DNA from: Fibrobacter succinogenes
Lineage (GTDB): Bacteria > Fibrobacterota > Fibrobacteria > Fibrobacterales > Fibrobacteraceae
Direction: 5' to 3'
DNA length: 64,000 nt
NCBI RefSeq assembly: GCF_902779965.1
Contig: NZ_CACZDK010000002.1
Span: 124,001-188,000, forward strand
How positions within the stretch are numbered: the first letter of the stretch is position 1; the number at the start of each line of letters is the position of its first letter. Positions 23,038 through 37,201 of the stretch are shown here, piece after piece. Made by a program: the position numbers and the translations under genes. The notes under the pieces are model-generated. The model saw only the letters and a list, made by a program, of their open reading frames with translations, had not been told where the DNA came from and did not search any database.

Positions 23038-25266
23038 TTATTTTATGTTCACGCGCTTGTAACTTTTTTCGACTTTTACAATGTAGTGGCCTGTGGTTGG
23101 AACTTTTACGCGAGTTGCGTTGCTGTTTAACGATCCGACGGAAATGACTTGCCCCTTCATATCCATGATGGCGTATTGCTTTGCTCTGTTAGATTTGTCT
23201 GTAGTAATTGTGATTTCTAGAGCGCCTGATTTCATGACATGGAATGTTTTGCTGTTTGCTTTGGTGCTACGCTCTGCGATGGCGGCTTTGCCTTTTACTG
23301 TGAATGTTGATAAAATTGTTTGGTTAGAGTCTATTTTGACGATGATGTAATACGAACCTTCGGTTAAACTGTTTAATATTTTGTTTTGGTCTATTACAGG
23401 GTGGATTGGGTCGGAAACGTTGATGGCTCCGTCTAGCTGAATGGGTTTTGTTGCAAATTCTGCTTCGCTAATAATGGTCTTAGTGGGGTCGGAACCCGTT
23501 GGGTCTGTGGTGAACAAGTATGTGATTGTTCTATCGTGGAATTGATTTTCCGGATTATCGCAAACGAAATCTATGGGCTTTCCGCACTTGTCTTTTGTGA
23601 TGACTCTGCATTTTTTGAAGAACCTTTCTTCTTTTTTAATTTTAAATACATCTATTTGATAAATATACAAGTTTGTGTTGATGTTTAAGTTGCTTGTTGT
23701 CGTGCGGCGGTCGCATGTGAAAATGTCAATGTCGTATTCATTGCCTTCTGTAGCTTTGGGTAAGAATTTATTCAAGTCAACGTAAGCGGGGGCGGCAAGA
23801 TGTGTTCCGCCAAGATCGACTGCGAGTTTGTTGTCGATGAATACCCAAATGTCATCGTTTCCGCTGATGCTGAATGTCGCGTTCTTTCTGAATTTGAATC
23901 GTGCATGAGTTTCAGAGCAAAAATGGTGATTTCTTCCGCCGTTTCCGTCCCCATCGACTTCGGATGTCCAACGGTATGATGCGGCTGCGCCTTGCGCTGG
24001 TGAACTTGGTTTTTCTGTACCTGTGACGTAAATGGGTGTTCCTTCGGGCGCTGCATCTTGGAAATCGCAACTCCATCCGAAAATACAATCGTGTTGGCCG
24101 AGCTTCAAGCTGTCTCGTATGGCGAGTTCTGTTTCGTAGCCGTCGTCAAAAAGTCCATTGCAATTGTAACCTTTGTCCCAACCGGGACCGCTGCAGAACA
24201 GATTGAAAATAGGTGTGTGTTCTGTGGAATCGATTTTGCGGAGCTCTGGACCGTAGAAAATCGGCCCTTCTGCTTTTCGTTTGGTTCGTGCTTCTGGAAG
24301 TTGTTTTTGGTTCGGGTCGAAAGTTAGGACGTTTTCGTCGGAATTTTCTACAGGGAAGAAACCTCCTGCAACAGGATTTTTGAGCCCGTTTACGTAGGTG
24401 TAATCAGAGTAGAAAGCCCATTTGTTGTCTGAAGATTTGGAAACAAGCATTTCGTAACAGCTCGCTTCGTTTACTCCGTCAGTTTGATTGAACATGGCGG
24501 CGAAAGCTTCGTCTGCTTGTGCTCCGAAACATTTTCGTCCGATATCAGTGAGTTCCATCTTTTTCGAAACAGAGTCGAGTGTTGACTTGACCATGCCTTG
24601 GGTTACGCCCATGCAGGGCATCTCAGCGGAATCTGAGGTAATAACGGGATATTTGACGTTGGGGTAGAAGCAGGCGTTGGTGTGAGATTGGGCTTTAGTT
24701 AGTGCTCCGTTCCAGTTTGGGCCGCAACTGAATGCGCCGTGCAAAGAAGCGTCGGTGTCGTAGATGACGGACGTCAAAATGTATTGGCAGTCTCCGATAA
24801 TTCCCGGGTCTGTTGTATACCAGCCAAAGTCGATTCCTTGGAGTGAGGAGGCGGTATTCTCGTCGGCGATGAAATACAGTTTTTTTTCATCAGTACCTAA
24901 CTGTTTGTCATAAATTTTAAATATCGCATCTAGGTTTATTGCTTCAGGTACTTTGCCTGCATTGGCGTCTTTTTCGCCTCCGAATCCGATTGCGTGTGCC
25001 ATAGTCTCGTCGTTATCGGCGTGAATGAAAACTTTTGAGGGTAGTTTTTCATTGACGTAGCGTCTGTAATACCATCCGCAATTTTCTGGGTCTATTTCGA
25101 GTACGCGGTCTTTGCCGTCTTCGTTGATTATAGGGGTGGCTTGAACCCAATATTGGTTTTGCGGTAAGAGTACGTAGAAATCTAGAGTGGTGTCGGACTT
25201 GCTTTCAGCGCAGATGGCTGCTGTAAACGCAGAAATTGCGATAATTGTTGCCTTCAGTAATTTCAT
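23038..25266 (-). CDS. Fibro-slime domain protein with T9SS sorting domain
   Basis: This 742-residue secreted protein has a signal peptide (about 1-20, ending ICA) and a large N-terminal region with many cysteines. The fibro-slime/PA14-like domain (about 395-555) has its hallmark NDDIWVFIDNKLAVDLGGTH near 470-490. The C-terminal sorting domain (about 665-742) has YAIMDMKGQVIS and GHYIVKVEK. Fibro-slime domains were named from Fibrobacter and slime-mould proteins, and the PA14-like fold often binds sugars. AAGGAGG lies before the start. It probably acts outside the cell in adhesion to plant material. Confidence 0.88.
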   Translation of the reverse strand: MKLLKATIIAISAFTAAICAESKSDTTLDFYVLLPQNQYWVQATPIINEDGKDRVLEIDPENCGWYYRRYVNEKLPSKVFIHADNDETMAHAIGFGGEKDANAGKVPEAINLDAIFKIYDKQLGTDEKKLYFIADENTASSLQGIDFGWYTTDPGIIGDCQYILTSVIYDTDASLHGAFSCGPNWNGALTKAQSHTNACFYPNVKYPVITSDSAEMPCMGVTQGMVKSTLDSVSKKMELTDIGRKCFGAQADEAFAAMFNQTDGVNEASCYEMLVSKSSDNKWAFYSDYTYVNGLKNPVAGGFFPVENSDENVLTFDPNQKQLPEARTKRKAEGPIFYGPELRKIDSTEHTPIFNLFCSGPGWDKGYNCNGLFDDGYETELAIRDSLKLGQHDCIFGWSCDFQDAAPEGTPIYVTGTEKPSSPAQGAAASYRWTSEVDGDGNGGRNHHFCSETHARFKFRKNATFSISGNDDIWVFIDNKLAVDLGGTHLAAPAYVDLNKFLPKATEGNEYDIDIFTCDRRTTTSNLNINTNLYIYQIDVFKIKKEERFFKKCRVITKDKCGKPIDFVCDNPENQFHDRTITYLFTTDPTGSDPTKTIISEAEFATKPIQLDGAINVSDPIHPVIDQNKILNSLTEGSYYIIVKIDSNQTILSTFTVKGKAAIAERSTKANSKTFHVMKSGALEITITTDKSNRAKQYAIMDMKGQVISVGSLNSNATRVKVPTTGHYIVKVEKSYKRVNIK

Positions 25267-26894: not shown

Positions 26895-29042
26895 ATGTAT
26901 ATATATAAGCTTTCCCCGATTTTTTCTGCCGCGGTTTTTTTGGGCGCGAGTGCAGCTTCTGCTGATACCAAGTTTTATTACAACCAGGTGGGTTACGATG
27001 TTGACCAACCGATTTCTGTAATTGTCAAGAGCGATAACCTCTCGGATGGCGCTGAATTTAGCGTGATGTCGAATGGTGCTGCCGTGCAGACGGGCAAGCT
27101 TTCGGCAGGCTCGAATCCGGACAATTGGCTCAATAACGGTAAGTTCTATGTCGCTGATTTGAAGGGGCTTGCTGCTGGTAAGTACACTTTGCAAGTTTCC
27201 GAGAACGGACAACCGCAAAATTCCAGTGAATTTACGGTGGGCGAAAATGCTTTGGCAAAAAATACGCTTGCAACGGTTCTCGATTACTTTTACAATGACC
27301 GTGCGGATGACCCAACTGTTGAAGGTTGGGACAAGAGCATGGGTGTTTATAATTCCAGCAAAAAGGTGGATGTTCATGGCGGCTGGTACGATGCCAGTGG
27401 TGACGTGAGCAAATATTTCAGCCACCTTTCTTATGCGAACTACTTGAACCCGCAGCAAATTCCGCTAACGGTCTGGTCGCTTGCGTTTGCTTCGGAACGC
27501 ATCCCGAAATTGCTTGGCTCGACTGCGACAAAGGCAAAAACGACTGATGAAGCGGCTTACGGTGCAGATTTCTTGGTGCGCATGCTCTCGGAAGAAGGCT
27601 TCTTCTACATGACTGTTTTTGACAACTGGGGATCGCCCATGGGTAAACGTGAAATTTGTGCGTTTTCCGGTTCCGATGGTATCAAGAGTGCTGATTACCA
27701 GACGGCTTTCCGCGAAGGTGGTGGCATGGCGATTGCGGGACTTGCGAGTGCGGCAAGGCTTAAGTTGAAGGGCGATTTTACGAGCGAACAGTATTTGGCT
27801 GCCGCAGAAAAAGCGTATAAGCATTTGTCCGAAAAACAGAGCATTGGCGGCGATTGCGCTTACTGCGATGACCACAAAGAAAATATCATCGACGATTACA
27901 CGGCGCTTTTGGCGGCAACGGAACTTTACGCGGCTACAAAAGACAGCGTGTATTTGAAGGATGCGCGCAAACGTGCAAAGCATCTTGAAGGTCGTTTGAG
28001 TGAAGATGGCTATTTCTGGAGCGATGATGCAAAGACCCGCCCGTTCTGGCATGCCAGTGATGCGGGGCTCCCGCTAATTGCGCTTATCCGCTATGCCGAA
28101 ATTGAAGCATCTATTGGTTATTTAAAAGAAAATAAATTTGATGAAGTCGATGTGTGGTTTTGCCCAACTTGCATTGGGTGCGAATGCAGCAACAGGCTTT
28201 TGTCGGCTGCCCATGACGCTATTGCGAAACATTATAGCTGGCTTGTTTCTATTACGAATAAGGTTGAAAACCCGTTCGGTTATGCTCGCCAGACTTACAA
28301 GACTCAAGGAGCTGTTAAGGATGGCTTCTTTATTCCGCATGACAATGAAAGCAATTATTGGTGGCAGGGCGAAGACGCTCGCATTGCAAGCCTTTCTGCT
28401 GCGGCAATGTATGCAGCTCGTGCTTTGAATGGGAGTATTGCTGATAGTGTGCAGAAATATGCGACGGATCAGCTCGACTGGATTTTGGGCAAGAATCCGT
28501 ATGCCACTTGCATGATGTACGGCAAGGGAACCAAGAATCCGAAGAAGTATGATGGCCAGTCGGAATATGACGCAACGCTTGAGGGGGGTATTGCAAATGG
28601 CATTACCGGTAAGAATCAGGATGGCTCGGGCATTGCCTGGACTGACGATGGCGTTGCTGCCGTGGGCTTTGATGCGATGAAGGAATCTTGGCAGGTGTGG
28701 CGCTGGGACGAACAGTGGCTTCCGCACAGCACTTGGTATTTGATGGCGCTCGTGGAACGCTATGACGAAGTCTCGAAGAAAGTGGAACAGCAGAAATCTG
28801 CGCTGCCGAAGAGTGTCGCTGCGGCAAGCTTTGGCGTATCGCTTGTCGGCAAGACTCTTTCGATGAACTTGCCGAAATCGGCTATCGGTAGCACTGTCAA
28901 AATTTTAGATGTGCGTGGTCAAGTGCAAATGAAAAAAGTTGCGCAATCGCGCAACGAGATAATGAACGTAAGCTCGCTCAATAGCGGAGTTTATTTTGTA
29001 CAAGTTGGCGGCATGTCTGCCAAAAAGTTCATCGTAAAGTAA
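26895..29042 (+). CDS. Glycoside hydrolase family 9 endoglucanase with T9SS sorting domain
   Basis: This 715-residue secreted cellulase has a signal peptide (about 1-23, ending ASA). An N-terminal immunoglobulin-like CelD_N domain (about 25-117) begins YYNQVGYD. The GH9 (alpha/alpha)6 catalytic domain runs about 120-620. HGGWYDASGDVSKY (161-174) carries the catalytic-base aspartates Asp166 and Asp170. LDWILGKNPYATCMMYGKG (about 530) is another GH9 hallmark. The C-terminal about 75 residues are a T9SS sorting domain (KILDVRGQVQM, SGVYFVQVGG). It should hydrolyse beta-1,4-glucan outside or at the surface of the cell, fitting a fibre-degrading bacterium. Confidence 0.92.
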   Translation: MYIYKLSPIFSAAVFLGASAASADTKFYYNQVGYDVDQPISVIVKSDNLSDGAEFSVMSNGAAVQTGKLSAGSNPDNWLNNGKFYVADLKGLAAGKYTLQVSENGQPQNSSEFTVGENALAKNTLATVLDYFYNDRADDPTVEGWDKSMGVYNSSKKVDVHGGWYDASGDVSKYFSHLSYANYLNPQQIPLTVWSLAFASERIPKLLGSTATKAKTTDEAAYGADFLVRMLSEEGFFYMTVFDNWGSPMGKREICAFSGSDGIKSADYQTAFREGGGMAIAGLASAARLKLKGDFTSEQYLAAAEKAYKHLSEKQSIGGDCAYCDDHKENIIDDYTALLAATELYAATKDSVYLKDARKRAKHLEGRLSEDGYFWSDDAKTRPFWHASDAGLPLIALIRYAEIEASIGYLKENKFDEVDVWFCPTCIGCECSNRLLSAAHDAIAKHYSWLVSITNKVENPFGYARQTYKTQGAVKDGFFIPHDNESNYWWQGEDARIASLSAAAMYAARALNGSIADSVQKYATDQLDWILGKNPYATCMMYGKGTKNPKKYDGQSEYDATLEGGIANGITGKNQDGSGIAWTDDGVAAVGFDAMKESWQVWRWDEQWLPHSTWYLMALVERYDEVSKKVEQQKSALPKSVAAASFGVSLVGKTLSMNLPKSAIGSTVKILDVRGQVQMKKVAQSRNEIMNVSSLNSGVYFVQVGGMSAKKFIVK

Positions 29043-29145: not shown

Positions 29146-30633
29146 CTAGTTTGTCACCTTGAACTTTTTGGTTCCGGCGTAAGCTTGTTGTACGAGAATG
29201 TTCCTGCCTTCTTCCATGAGCTTTTTCGCTTGTTCGGCAAGTTTGTCGTCATCTTTTTCTTTGAGGACCTTTTCCAAGTGTTCCATAGCAACATTAATGT
29301 CGAGCTTTGTTTTTATGCGAAGTTCCCCAATATCCAAATGCGCACGGCGTATGAGCATCGCGTCCTTTTCTTTGGCGATTCCTTTTTCGAGTAATACGAT
29401 GGCTGCTTCGGGAATGTTCTTTTGCTTTGCGGTTGCGCCCCATTCAAGCCATTGCAGGCTTGGGAATTCGGCGTAGCTGCCCGCAATTTTGTTTGCGGCG
29501 TCCTTTACGTCTTGGAACTTGACAGGTTCTTCTCGCAAAAGCGCTGTTAGCCCGTATTGGAGTATTCGCGCTGCGTTTTCGGTTTCGCCATTGTTGGCTG
29601 CTTCGAGACCCTTAGTAATCATATTGCGAATGCGTTCGCCCGGCGATACGGTTTCTTCGGCTCTTTGTGCGTTGTCTGTTGTTTGGGTAGAATCGTTTTC
29701 TGAGCGGTGAGGCATAAAGTAACCTGCGACTCCGCCCAAAGCAAAGAATATGGGGGATTCTACGGCGACTGCATTGAAAATGCCTGGGTTTAAGAACCAG
29801 TCGATTGCCATGCTGATGGCAAGGCCGAATTCTGAAATCTTGCAGACATAAGAGGGAATAGCGTCTTTTTCTTTGTCGAATGTGTTTGCTCCCAGCAAGA
29901 AGCAGAGCATCAGGCTTACGCCAATGTAGCGTTGCGATGCAAAATGTTCAAAGAACGATGTGTTCACCAGAATATCTACAAAGAACCCGCTTATGATTGT
30001 GATTACAATCGCGTATGCATAAACGAATAATGTATTCCAACGTTTTTCAAGTTGAATCAGCGCGAACATGAAGCAGACTGCAAAGAAAATAAAGGACCAA
30101 AGGCTAGGAAGGAGCAAACCGCATGTGAAGAAGCTTTCGGAGTTTCCTCGGCTTGGAATATAAGCCCAACGGTAACGGATGAATTTGTCCGTGTAATTGT
30201 TAATCCATTTCTTGAGTTCGGCTTCGTATTGCTTGTCGGTCGGGAAGTTGCCGTGTTCTGCAGCATATTGTTCCTTTCCGCCTTGGTTCTCCCACCAATC
30301 GAGAAATTCGCCTTTCATTTCTTCAATGCGGTCTTCGATAATCGGTGTGGGATTCTCGACTTTGTAGCGCTCCTTGTAGAGTTCGAACTCTTGCGCCTTG
30401 ATGGTGTCGTTTGGGGTGAGCCCTACGTTTTTAAATTCTTGGGCGCGTTCCTCGTTCCACCACTTTTCAAATGATTCGTGGATTTCTTTTTTTTGCCTGA
30501 ATTCTTGGATTTGGGGATCGAGTGTGGTTTCGAAGTTGAATACCCCAATGCCAAAAATTACCAAAAGCGTCAGGTAATGGTGGATCTTGAAAAAACGGAA
30601 CGGTTTTAGGAGTGTTTTCAATTTTATCTTCAT
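29146..30633 (-). CDS. Rhomboid-like polytopic membrane protein lacking catalytic residues
   Basis: This protein is 495 residues long from the ATG at 30633; an ATG 18 bases further up is possible. An N-terminal helix is followed by a Trp/Glu-rich extracytoplasmic segment (about 35-160) and about six helices (170-307). A helical TPR-like cytoplasmic part (about 330-495) ends the protein. The membrane part has rhomboid layout: LEKRWNTLFVYAYA (matching lEerwG..rfl), YIGVSLMLCFLLGA where active rhomboids have GASGA, and FALGGVAGYF where they have AHLGGfvaGy. The serine environment and the histidine are altered, so it should not be an active protease. It lies 48 bases downstream of a kinase gene. 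Confidence 0.6.
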   Translation of the reverse strand: MKIKLKTLLKPFRFFKIHHYLTLLVIFGIGVFNFETTLDPQIQEFRQKKEIHESFEKWWNEERAQEFKNVGLTPNDTIKAQEFELYKERYKVENPTPIIEDRIEEMKGEFLDWWENQGGKEQYAAEHGNFPTDKQYEAELKKWINNYTDKFIRYRWAYIPSRGNSESFFTCGLLLPSLWSFIFFAVCFMFALIQLEKRWNTLFVYAYAIVITIISGFFVDILVNTSFFEHFASQRYIGVSLMLCFLLGANTFDKEKDAIPSYVCKISEFGLAISMAIDWFLNPGIFNAVAVESPIFFALGGVAGYFMPHRSENDSTQTTDNAQRAEETVSPGERIRNMITKGLEAANNGETENAARILQYGLTALLREEPVKFQDVKDAANKIAGSYAEFPSLQWLEWGATAKQKNIPEAAIVLLEKGIAKEKDAMLIRRAHLDIGELRIKTKLDINVAMEHLEKVLKEKDDDKLAEQAKKLMEEGRNILVQQAYAGTKKFKVTN

Positions 30634-30681
30634 GCTAATGAATATAAACAAATCATTAGTAGATAGTAAGAAGATTAATTG

Positions 30682-31788
30682 TTAAAAAGCGCGTTTGCTG
30701 TACTCGTTTAACTGATTCCACAAAAAATCGGTGTTCACGTCGCGAAATCCGACGGCATTGACCTCTTCACGGAGCTTGTGGGCCATGGTAAACAGGTTCG
30801 GGCTTTTATTCATGCGTTCGGTGCTGTCGAATGTGGTGAGCGCGTCAATCCAGTCGTGAATTTCCGGGAAGCGTTCGTCGTTAAACACGTTTTCGCGGCC
30901 GTTTTCGATATATTCCATGTAGCGCTTGGTGATAAGTCGGCCTTCTTCTGTGTAGATTTCTTTTGCCTTGGGGTAGAGCTTTACACCGGTCAAGTATTCG
31001 TGCATCACTGCGCCAAAGCTAAAGTAGTCTACTGCGCAGGTGATGTTTTCGCTAGATTGGGCGAGTTCGGGAGCGCTGTAGCTAGGCGATGAAAGTCCAC
31101 CGCCTTCGGTGACTGTCTCGCGCATCTTTGCCTGGGCGTAACCAAAGTCGCAAAGCAAAATCTTGTGGTTGTTCTTGTGCGCTGGGTTCTGGCACAAGAG
31201 CAAGTTCCTGGGCTTAATGTCCTTGTGGACGATTTGATAATAATGGAGCTGGCTAATGGTGTTTGCGAGGTAGGCCATTTGGGCGACTCGCTTCACGATT
31301 TCTTCGTCCGTAAGCTTGGGCTTGATGACTCTGTCGAGTGAACACCCTTTGATGAACTCCAACTTGAGGTAAGGGTGGCGACCTGCGATGCCGCCGCCAT
31401 AAGATTGCACCACTCCTTCGATATTTGTTGCGCGGATGAGGTTGTTGATGCGGATTTCATCCTGGAATGCGCTCAGGAGCATGTTCAAACGGTGCAGACG
31501 GTTTTTACCAGGTGGTGCCCAGTACTTGCAAATCTTTACGACGATTTCTTTTTCGTCATAGCGCTTTTCGTCGCGCGGGTGTTGGATCCAGAGTTTGGCT
31601 CGGTATAGCTGGTTTGTGCCTTCGAGCGAAAGAGGCTCGATGAGCTCGATGCGTTCGGCGTTACCATTGTGCTTGAAGTCCGGGTTATGGTCAAACCACC
31701 GCTGGTATTCCGCCATGGTGTAGTTCGGGCGTAGCGCCAAGTTGCGCGAAACCCTGTCTATCGTTTCTGCCAAATTGTTCCAGAACAT
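30682..31788 (-). CDS. Serine/threonine protein kinase
   Basis: This 368-residue cytosolic kinase of the Hanks type shows the ATP-anchoring Lys85 (IVVKICK) and the catalytic loop HKDIKPRNLL (188-197, Asp190, Asn195). DFG is at 214-216, and SPSYSAPELAQ (APE, about 239-241) ends the activation segment. The glycine-rich loop is degenerate (SLEGTNQLYRA). No membrane helix or sensor domain is seen. The longer open frame to 31884 runs through the terminator of the upstream LOG gene, so I start at the ATG at 31788. It is probably co-transcribed with the rhomboid-like gene after it. Confidence 0.85.
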   Translation of the reverse strand: MFWNNLAETIDRVSRNLALRPNYTMAEYQRWFDHNPDFKHNGNAERIELIEPLSLEGTNQLYRAKLWIQHPRDEKRYDEKEIVVKICKYWAPPGKNRLHRLNMLLSAFQDEIRINNLIRATNIEGVVQSYGGGIAGRHPYLKLEFIKGCSLDRVIKPKLTDEEIVKRVAQMAYLANTISQLHYYQIVHKDIKPRNLLLCQNPAHKNNHKILLCDFGYAQAKMRETVTEGGGLSSPSYSAPELAQSSENITCAVDYFSFGAVMHEYLTGVKLYPKAKEIYTEEGRLITKRYMEYIENGRENVFNDERFPEIHDWIDALTTFDSTERMNKSPNLFTMAHKLREEVNAVGFRDVNTDFLWNQLNEYSKRAF

Positions 31789-31853: not shown

Positions 31854-31878
31854 GCAAAAACCCGCCTTTAGGCGGGCT
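31854..31878 (-). terminator. Terminator of the LOG gene
   Basis: On the minus strand CCCGCC/GGCGGG with a 4-base loop (31876-31861) is followed by TTTTTGCTGTTT. It separates the LOG gene from the kinase gene. Confidence 0.8.
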
Positions 31879-31908
31879 TGACAAGGTTATAATAGGCTAA
31901 AAAAGCCT

Positions 31909-32742
31909 TTACATCTCGTCGCTAGCGGGGGAATGGGTGAACGTGACCTGCCCTTCGCTTTGTTCTTCGAGCTTCGATGTGATGAAGTCGTAGGCTTCAT
32001 CGACCGTATCGCAGAACTTGAACAGCTTGAGGTCTTCGGGGTTGATCATGCCTGCTTCGGCGAAGAATTCCCAGTTGAGCGCCTTCTTCCAGAACTTGGA
32101 ATCGAAGATAACGACCGGCATCTGCTGGGCGTACTTGTCGGTCTGGATAAGCGTGAGCATTTCGAAGGCTTCGTCGAGAGTGCCGAATCCGCCGGGGAAA
32201 ATCACCAGTGCACGAGCCATGCGCAAGAACCAGTATTTACGAATAAAGAAATAACGGAATTGCAGATTGAGCTCGTCGTCGATGTAAGGATTGCAATGTT
32301 GTTCGAAAGGAAGCTTGATGTTCAGGCCGATAGACGGCGTTCCGACGTCGGTCGCACCTCGGTTGCCGGCTTCCATGATGCCCGGACCGCCACCCGTCAT
32401 GATGGCGTAACCTTGATGGCGCTTGTTGATCCACTTGCCGAGCTTTGCGGCAAGATCGCGTGCGGCATTGTAGGAATCGGCAACTTTAGACAGGCGGTCT
32501 AAGCGGGCCAGTTCCTTCTTATCCTTGCAGCCCTTGCGACGCTTTTTGATTTCGTCGGGCGGGAGTGTACGTGCAGAACCGAAGAACACGATAGAATTCT
32601 TGATTTCTTCTTGAGCAAAAACTTGTGCGGGGGAAAAAAATTCAGAAAGAATTCGAATGGGACGTGCTGCGTCGCTTTCCATAAATTCGGCATTGTGGTA
32701 TGCCATTTGACCCGGTTTTGGGCGGAATTTCTTTGGCGCCAT
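31909..32742 (-). CDS. LOG-family protein (nucleotide 5'-monophosphate phosphoribohydrolase type)
   Basis: This 277-residue cytosolic protein of the lysine-decarboxylase-like/LOG family has a Rossmann fold with two clear signatures: MTGGGPGIMEAGNRGA (about 115-130) and FPGGFGTLDEAFE (about 182-194). Members release a base from nucleoside monophosphates (cytokinin activation, or PpnN-type nucleotide recycling). It carries about 75 extra N-terminal residues including a Lys/Arg-rich stretch (KKRRKGCKDKK). AGAGGT precedes the start. The substrate in this organism is not known. Confidence 0.88.
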   Translation of the reverse strand: MAPKKFRPKPGQMAYHNAEFMESDAARPIRILSEFFSPAQVFAQEEIKNSIVFFGSARTLPPDEIKKRRKGCKDKKELARLDRLSKVADSYNAARDLAAKLGKWINKRHQGYAIMTGGGPGIMEAGNRGATDVGTPSIGLNIKLPFEQHCNPYIDDELNLQFRYFFIRKYWFLRMARALVIFPGGFGTLDEAFEMLTLIQTDKYAQQMPVVIFDSKFWKKALNWEFFAEAGMINPEDLKLFKFCDTVDEAYDFITSKLEEQSEGQVTFTHSPASDEM

Positions 32743-36558: not shown

Positions 36559-36792
36559 ATGGCCTTAGATATGACATTGACTGAGATAAACCCAGCTCAG
36601 ATGTTGGTTTTGAAGTCTTTCGCAAATGTATCTAGCGAAGAAGAATTAAGCGCTTTGATGAAAACGCTTAAGAAATTCTATGCCCAAAGATTAGAAAAGG
36701 AGCTTGACCGTTTGTGGGCTGATGGAACGTTAGATCAAAAGAAGTTGGACGAGTTGCAGTCTGAACATCTACGGACTCCATATCGTGGATAA
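36559..36792 (+). CDS. Putative antitoxin partner of PIN toxin
   Basis: This 77-residue acidic and basic helical protein has no recognised DNA-binding motif. Its stop overlaps the start of the PIN-domain gene by eight bases, the tight coupling expected of an antitoxin-toxin pair. Similar short proteins with an ARxxEKELDxLW-like C-terminal helix accompany COG1569 PIN toxins (here RLEKELDRLWADG). It has its own near-consensus promoter. Antitoxin function is inferred from position. Confidence 0.75.
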   Translation: MALDMTLTEINPAQMLVLKSFANVSSEEELSALMKTLKKFYAQRLEKELDRLWADGTLDQKKLDELQSEHLRTPYRG

Positions 36793-37201
36793 GAAGCTAA
36801 AAGTTGTTGTGGATACGAATGCCCTTTTGCAAATGTTAGGGCGTCATAGCAAGTACCATTTTCTTTATGAAAAATTTTTGAATGAAGAATATTGGCTATG
36901 TGTATCTAATGAAATTGTGCATGAATATGAAGAAATCTTGGAAATGCTTGCATCACCTGTGGCTGCAAATTTATTCATGAAAGTTTTGGAGTTTTCAGAG
37001 AATGTAGTTCGTAAAGATCCGTTCTTTAAACTTAACCTGATTAAGAAGGATCCTGATGATAATAAATTTGTTGATTGTGCGTTTGCTAGTCAAGCTGATT
37101 ACATCGTGACAAATGATGCTCATTTTTTGGAGCTTAAGCAGGTCAATTTTCCGACTATACAGGTGAAATCTTTAGACGATTTTGCTTTAGATATGGGATA
37201 A
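36785..37201 (+). CDS. PIN-domain toxin of a toxin-antitoxin system
   Basis: This 138-residue putative ribonuclease (PIN family, COG1569 type) starts at a GTG within the end of the antitoxin gene. Acidic metal-binding residues are visible: Asp10 in VVVDTNALL, Glu43/Glu47 in SNEIVHEYEE, and Asp97 and Asp111 in KFVDCAFASQADYIVTNDAHF. VapC-like PIN toxins cut tRNA or mRNA with magnesium. It is translationally coupled to the upstream antitoxin. The target is unknown. Confidence 0.88.
   Translation: MDKKLKVVVDTNALLQMLGRHSKYHFLYEKFLNEEYWLCVSNEIVHEYEEILEMLASPVAANLFMKVLEFSENVVRKDPFFKLNLIKKDPDDNKFVDCAFASQADYIVTNDAHFLELKQVNFPTIQVKSLDDFALDMG

Follow-up and report, generated by a model that had tools for sequence, protein, structure and literature searches.

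A window of 64,000 nucleotides from Fibrobacter succinogenes (contig NZ_CACZDK010000002.1, positions 124,001 to 188,000, in an assembly of 4.09 Mb and 76 contigs) carries on its minus strand a gene, here called RH (29146..30633, in window coordinates as throughout), for a membrane protein of 495 amino acids with six predicted transmembrane (TM) segments, in which a rhomboid core is followed by a TPR-like tail. At the level of its sequence RH is a rhomboid pseudoprotease that has lost the oxyanion residues and the catalytic dyad and has kept the core. It lies behind a gene for a soluble Hanks-type Ser/Thr kinase, and on balance we lean towards a reading in which RH is a scaffold that does not cut, the kinase being a dispensable partner in most of the family. 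The reading frame runs from the ATG at 30633 to the stop at 29146, with M1 common to 9/9 compared sequences; the closest of eight named records belongs to a metagenome-assembled genome of Fibrobacter succinogenes (97% protein identity).

Active site and ancestry of the rhomboid core

Active-site residues were counted in 58 aligned family sequences, the most divergent two (L056 and L125) being left out. The rhomboid GxSG, found in 0/58, is replaced by GVSL in RH (residues 238-241; 29911..29922, minus strand), as a preliminary description of the locus had read it. The TM6 motif SPIFFALGGVAG (residues 293-304; 29722..29757, minus strand) is without histidine, and none of the 58 sequences has a His anywhere in residues 285-305. 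L056 and L125 carry GVGL and GLGP, respectively, and their TM6 stretch likewise lacks His. According to an excerpt of a mycobacterial rhomboid survey (PMC2989971), a His and an Asn in TM2 are the oxyanion residues of rhomboid proteases; the corresponding positions in RH are S180 (Ser in 48/58, His in 0) and F184 (Phe in 53/58, Asn in 0). The position of the former catalytic serine, S240, is still Ser in 54/58 sequences, and G238, G248, G300 and G304 are invariant (58/58). As judged from residue conservation, this conserved but altered pocket points to a structural role that was kept rather than to decay.

The preliminary description had taken ALGG (residues 298-301) for the histidine motif. 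The loss of the histidine was confirmed (0/58); the placing of it at A298 was not. The HxxGxxxG spacing as in GlpG, which we assume to apply here, would put the lost His at F297, and the MAFFT register puts it at S293. Either position appears more likely than A298, because G300 and G304 are invariant and G301 is Gly in just 10/58 sequences. The profile alignments cover TM2 to TM4/5 alone, and the TM6 register is less certain than the register of the serine.

Taken as a single sequence, RH gave nothing above cut-off in a Pfam scan (best E 0.055), no NCBIfam match at E <= 1 and no PADLOC match at E <= 0.01. When 167 phylum genomes were searched with a family profile built from 27 members, proteins of 470-517 amino acids were found in other classes of the phylum as well. 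The relatives considered active (L113, L114, L115, L116, L117, L118 and L120, the last of 489 amino acids) all pass PF01694 Rhomboid (7/7, at 1.5e-22 to 6.9e-28). They carry GASG, AHV/IGGF or AHVAGF in TM6, and the TM2 His and Asn. These rhomboid-TPR proteins, for which we found no published name, resemble RH in length and in the order of core and tail, and their C-terminal tails are homologous to the RH tail; they differ from RH in the intact catalytic and oxyanion motifs and in having no duplicated Trp-rich loop.

Profile-profile comparison (hhalign) of RH with these relatives gave probabilities of 95.5% for the core, aligned over TM2-TM4/5, and 99.1% for the tail, and the core of the relatives matched 31 ordinary rhomboids at 99.9%. 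Among the controls for the core, 0/40 column-shuffled profiles reached 50%, the best of them scoring 2.7%; the reversed profile scored 0.5%. The register placed GVSL on GASG and LEKRW on MEKxW (E-K-x-W motif), so that the serine of homologues with an intact GxSG falls on that of RH and not elsewhere, the opposite of the result that would speak against a lost active site; the lower certainty noted for TM6 applies to its histidine. Core-only and tail-only profiles of RH were further run against 2579 open reading frames (ORFs). With the tail alone, all seven active relatives were recovered at 5.6e-14 to 1e-5, unrelated ORFs scoring 3.2 or worse. With the core alone, L116 (5.9e-6), L117 (1.9e-5), L119 (1.1e-4) and L113 (0.0094) ranked before the best unrelated ORF (0.047).

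Part of the data did not agree with this homology. The core-only profile clearly recovered just three of the seven active relatives, and ranked L114 (0.058), L120 (0.1), L118 (0.59) and L115 (1.1) below the unrelated ORF. Compared directly with the 31 ordinary rhomboids, the RH core profile was not significant (0.05%), though GVSL was aligned with GASG. AlphaFold2, supplied with the window protein and eight homologues that are 72-97% identical, modelled the core of the full-length protein with a mean pLDDT of 27-51 per ten-residue block, and the core alone with a mean of 41; Foldseek with the latter, low-confidence model returned nothing at E <= 0.001. The poor core models probably reflect an alignment that is not deep. 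GABA-receptor chains obtained in a PDB search with the family profile (2.9e-5) were taken as a composition artefact. By the profile comparisons as a whole, RH has full-length homologues, in core as well as tail, among the active rhomboid-TPR proteins from other classes, and the active form would be its ancestor. The preliminary description of a membrane protein with rhomboid topology and a lost active site was supported at the level of sequence.

A second rhomboid-like protein, L119:5004-6434 (genome G160; same class, another family), passes PF01694 at 1.3e-17. In it GPAG replaces GxSG, an iRhom-like GPx signature, and the TM6 motif is without His. Its inactivation is apparently separate from that of RH.

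Predicted periplasmic loop and cytoplasmic tail

Hydropathy placed the six segments of RH at residues 14-32, 175-193, 201-219, 231-249, 263-281 and 285-303, about 14 residues preceding TM1. The positive-inside rule predicts that both termini and the tail face the cytoplasm and that the loop lies outside. The loop between TM1 and TM2 (residues 40-152; 30178..30516, minus strand), predicted extracytoplasmic on the same basis, is large and rich in Trp and Glu, in agreement with the preliminary description: 6 Trp, 21 Glu and 0 Cys were counted in residues 42-168. It is made up of a duplicated Trp-rich unit of ~43 residues, detected by hhalign of one copy against the other (97.4%, E 1.5e-11): unit 1 at residues 52-93 (30355..30480) and unit 2 at residues 107-150 (30184..30315), both on the minus strand. 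The duplication probably arose later, because L056 and L125, the most divergent RH sequences, are without the first part of the loop.

The rhomboid core itself, TM2-TM6, spans residues 170-308 (29710..30126, minus strand) and is followed by the TPR-like tail, predicted cytoplasmic, at residues 335-478 (29200..29631, minus strand). The tail was modelled by AlphaFold2 with moderate confidence (block pLDDT 68-85). The model (residues 326-486) resembles TPR-type solenoids, as had been proposed, with the caution usual for helical repeats, for which the Z of about 9 of the TPR rows is a common level. No rhomboid was among the 50 structure-match rows for this tail, compared alone, and sequence matches of RH to TPR proteins were weak (best 0.025).

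The linked kinase and its distribution

The kinase gene (30682..31788, minus strand) encodes 368 amino acids and is separated from RH by exactly 48 bases (30634..30681). Its product matches Pfam Pkinase at 2.8e-24. In 18 aligned rows K85, H188-K189-D190, N195, D214-F215-G216 and A239-P240-E241 are invariant; K85, D190 and D214 correspond to the VAIK Lys, the HRD Asp and the DFG Asp. By these residues the protein keeps the catalytic motifs of an active Hanks-type kinase, sharing with that class the catalytic Lys and the HKD, DFG and APE motifs. Its glycine-rich loop is reduced (LEGTN-LYRA), with a single conserved Gly. No TM segment was seen by hydropathy and, other than kinase-type Pfam matches, no sensor domain was found, in which it differs from receptor Ser/Thr kinases; the early account of a kinase lacking sensor and membrane anchor, 48 bases ahead of RH, was therefore accurate. 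Across the family, kinase sequences are 64-75% identical to that of the window, and RH sequences 22-43% outside the closest clade. Matches of the kinase to defence systems were read as generic kinase matches, and RH and the adjoining LOG-family gene had none.

This LOG-family gene (31909..32742, minus strand; TIGR00730-like, slightly below cut-off) is the constant neighbour of the kinase. Between the two lies a terminator-like hairpin (31858..31879, minus strand) of 9 pairs, 6 of them G-C, and the terminator scan gave no minus-strand terminator-like site in the 48-base gap between kinase and RH. This arrangement, a hairpin separating LOG from the kinase and none between kinase and RH, suggests a two-gene operon of kinase and RH; the scan is weak, with 6 sites vs 4.6 expected, and the hairpin is a consensus match only. 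Elsewhere in the window, a GH9 family protein with a Por-type secretion tail is encoded at 26895-29042, convergent to RH, a PA14-domain protein at 23038-25266 (2.2e-7) and a PIN-domain protein at 36785-37201 (PIN_3, 3.8e-18).

By profile (E <= 1e-60), the kinase is present in 89/167 genomes of the phylum, all within one family, which from its members appears to be the Fibrobacteraceae. Every one of these 89 genomes has the RH core, so that the kinase never occurs without it, and in 83/89 the two genes are adjacent on one strand. Retention of a gene with the core in 97/111 family genomes argues that RH is not a chance reading frame. A Fisher's p of 1.5e-12 for the co-occurrence ignores kinship and was not used as support. 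In the fetched stretches around the active relatives, no kinase of the RH-linked family was found (0/7). Beside one active rhomboid-TPR gene, a different, 654-aa kinase-like protein is encoded divergently (L115:6480-8441; profile E 7.8e-14).

Several observations weigh against a partnership of RH with the kinase. The two genes are not adjacent in five genomes: in G002 and G104, the two most divergent lineages, they lie on the same contig 15-17 kb apart, in G071 about 10 kb apart, and in G019 and G056 on different contigs. In G107 they are likewise on different contigs, with RH at a contig end, which makes adjacency undecidable. A KsgA-like gene precedes RH in G002 and G104, where the kinase adjoins the LOG gene; LOG stays with the kinase in all 5 examined loci with RH elsewhere (L138, L139, L140, L141 and L142). 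Moreover, 8/97 genomes with the RH core (G029, G030, G038, G039, G069, G077, G078 and G095, all Fibrobacter) are without the kinase at the profile threshold given above, more distant kinases not having been looked for. Seven of the kinase-less loci were fetched. In their RH sequences 0/33 otherwise near-invariant positions are changed, that is, there is no visible relaxation, and on the RH tree these genomes need one change, with weak support (61). Where enough sequence was available, LOG is directly followed by RH (6/6). Because RH persists under constraint in genomes that have no such kinase, it probably does more than sense for the kinase, and a kinase-independent role is likely. A GGDEF-EAL protein (L131:5159-6841) is encoded upstream of the LOG-RH pair in kinase-less Fibrobacter genomes.

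The profile did not match the core in the remaining 14 genomes of the family. Eleven of them (genus g4 and G001) gave a tail-only RH match and three no match. Five of the eleven tail-only proteins were read, being short (237-345 amino acids) and membrane-like; examples are L122:7722-8585, L129:9352-10134, L123:8127-8837 and L124:2221-3255. Their gene follows a KsgA-like gene in L122, L124, L126 and L129, which was not seen in L123, and no member of the kinase family is listed for these five genomes. From their sequences they look like a remnant of the rhomboid-TPR gene after loss of the core.

Signs of coupling were also sought in evolutionary rates. Proteins were compared from stop to stop, dropping columns filled in <80% of rows, and branch rates and controls were taken from 29 of 30 genomes, G109 being dropped as its rhomboid control is absent. 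On the branch to the F. succinogenes-like clade both kinase and RH evolved faster than in other Fibrobacter (rate ratios 1.65 and 1.25); the controls on the same branch did not (LOG 1.08, KsgA 0.98, ordinary rhomboid 0.90). The partial correlation of RH and kinase was 0.74 given LOG (43 loci) and 0.60 with more controls. The unrelated pair KsgA-rhomboid reached 0.64, and because RH-kinase is no better than this, the mirror-tree correlation says little. Among parts of RH longer than 25 residues the tail followed the kinase distances best (partial r 0.60; core 0.49, loop 0.37), a ranking that the 22-residue linker, at 0.67, exceeds. Taken together, the coevolution measures give modest signs of a coupling.

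Role of RH and relation to known rhomboids

In the reading we lean towards, RH would work without cutting. Its membrane core and duplicated Trp-rich periplasmic unit would bind a membrane or envelope client, and its cytoplasmic TPR-like tail would dock cytoplasmic partners. Such a partner may, in most family members, be the adjacent soluble kinase, held at the membrane or gated through the tail. The kinase-less genomes suggest that the kinase is dispensable and that the scaffold function could also operate alone. A link between RH and the kinase, as claimed in the preliminary description, is supported by co-occurrence (89/89) and adjacency (83/89). The sensor role proposed there is plausible only, in view of the eight kinase-less genomes and the 15-17 kb separation.

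According to that proposal the pseudo-rhomboid is a dedicated membrane sensor or receptor, in which a signal at the periplasmic loop passes through core and tail and switches the kinase. We regard this as possible but tentative. It would explain why a kinase without TM anchor lies with RH behind a terminator-like hairpin and why it is never found without the RH core, and it fits the prediction that tail and kinase share one side of the membrane. Persistence and constraint of RH in genomes without the kinase and the separation of the genes in the two most divergent lineages argue against it, as does a kinase far more conserved than its supposed receptor. Equally tentative is the reverse relation, in which RH would be a scaffold that the kinase controls by phosphorylating its linker or tail on the cytoplasmic side; such a scaffold could be an FtsH adaptor, like Bacillus YqgP. 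This fits the genomes that lost the kinase and retained RH, and linker and tail are the parts that track the kinase distances best. A non-cutting FtsH adaptor role is reported for YqgP in an excerpt of PMC7231995, which also places the TPR tail of that protein outside the cell, whereas the tail of RH is predicted inside; phosphosite and FtsH link are proposals made here.

Rather doubtful is a further extension, an independent bacterial iRhom-like receptor: an active rhomboid-TPR protease would have lost catalysis, gained a duplicated extracytoplasmic domain at the site of the iRhom domain and become the membrane partner in a receptor kinase split into two proteins, the soluble kinase docking on the TPR tail. 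We consider it unlikely that kinase and RH are mere neighbours with no direct partnership and that the kinase works with LOG or alone. The behaviour of LOG, which in the loci examined adjoins the kinase if RH is elsewhere and adjoins RH if the kinase is missing, would suit such a view. The presence of the RH core in every genome with the kinase (89/89), unlinked cases included, the acceleration of kinase and RH but not of LOG in one clade, and the terminator-like site that separates LOG from the kinase in the window are against it. It is very improbable that RH is no rhomboid at all but a six-helix membrane protein alike by composition, an explanation that can draw on the absence of a Pfam match above cut-off, the non-significant comparison with ordinary rhomboids, the uninformative core models and the GABA-receptor matches, which show that weak TM matches mislead, and that is countered by the colinear match of core and tail to clear rhomboids in the same GxSG and E-K-x-W register.

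Among known rhomboid proteins, Derlins may be likened to RH by description as non-proteolytic members of the superfamily; to our knowledge they belong to eukaryotic endoplasmic-reticulum-associated degradation and have no RH-like loop or TPR tail. An excerpt of a 2025 review (PMC12615303) describes them as binding membrane clients. The iRhoms (RHBDF1/2) are eukaryotic pseudoproteases whose TM1 and TM2 flank a large extracytoplasmic domain, as stated in part of PMC6451368, and RH resembles them as a dead rhomboid with a large extracytoplasmic loop at that place. It differs in several respects: Pro at position 239 was found in 0/58 sequences, so that the iRhom GPx is not present; the loop of the window protein, with 0 Cys, is not the Cys-rich IRHD; TM1 starts near residue 14, leaving no long N-terminal cytoplasmic domain; and RH has a TPR-like tail. 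The origin of RH would be separate from that of the iRhoms. YqgP (GluP) of Bacillus subtilis, a bacterial rhomboid with a TPR tail, can be set beside RH by description, and is the nearest bacterial precedent that we found for rhomboid work without cutting. According to the same excerpt (PMC7231995) it also acts without proteolysis, as FtsH adaptor, and differs in being catalytically intact, with a cytosolic N-terminal metal-binding domain and an extracellular TPR domain. In RH only the short stretch before TM1 stands at that end.

Literature searches, made among open-licence papers, listed none on a rhomboid of Fibrobacter and none that, by title and beginning of the abstract, concerned a bacterial pair of a dead rhomboid and a kinase. 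The portion of the mycobacterial survey seen (PMC2989971) describes a rhomboid pseudogene and no fixed dead subfamily. In the extract of the 2025 review (PMC12615303) pseudoproteases are treated through iRhoms and Derlins. For bacteria, the case for a non-cutting role had been made with YqgP, which is still an active protease.

At the level of sequence, RH is a bacterial rhomboid kept dead throughout a family, and the phylum also contains active relatives built in the same way. RH may be the counterpart in bacteria of the inactive rhomboids known from animals. The family lets direct tests address rhomboid work without cutting and the steering of a kinase by a dead rhomboid, for which the kinase-less genomes provide a natural control.

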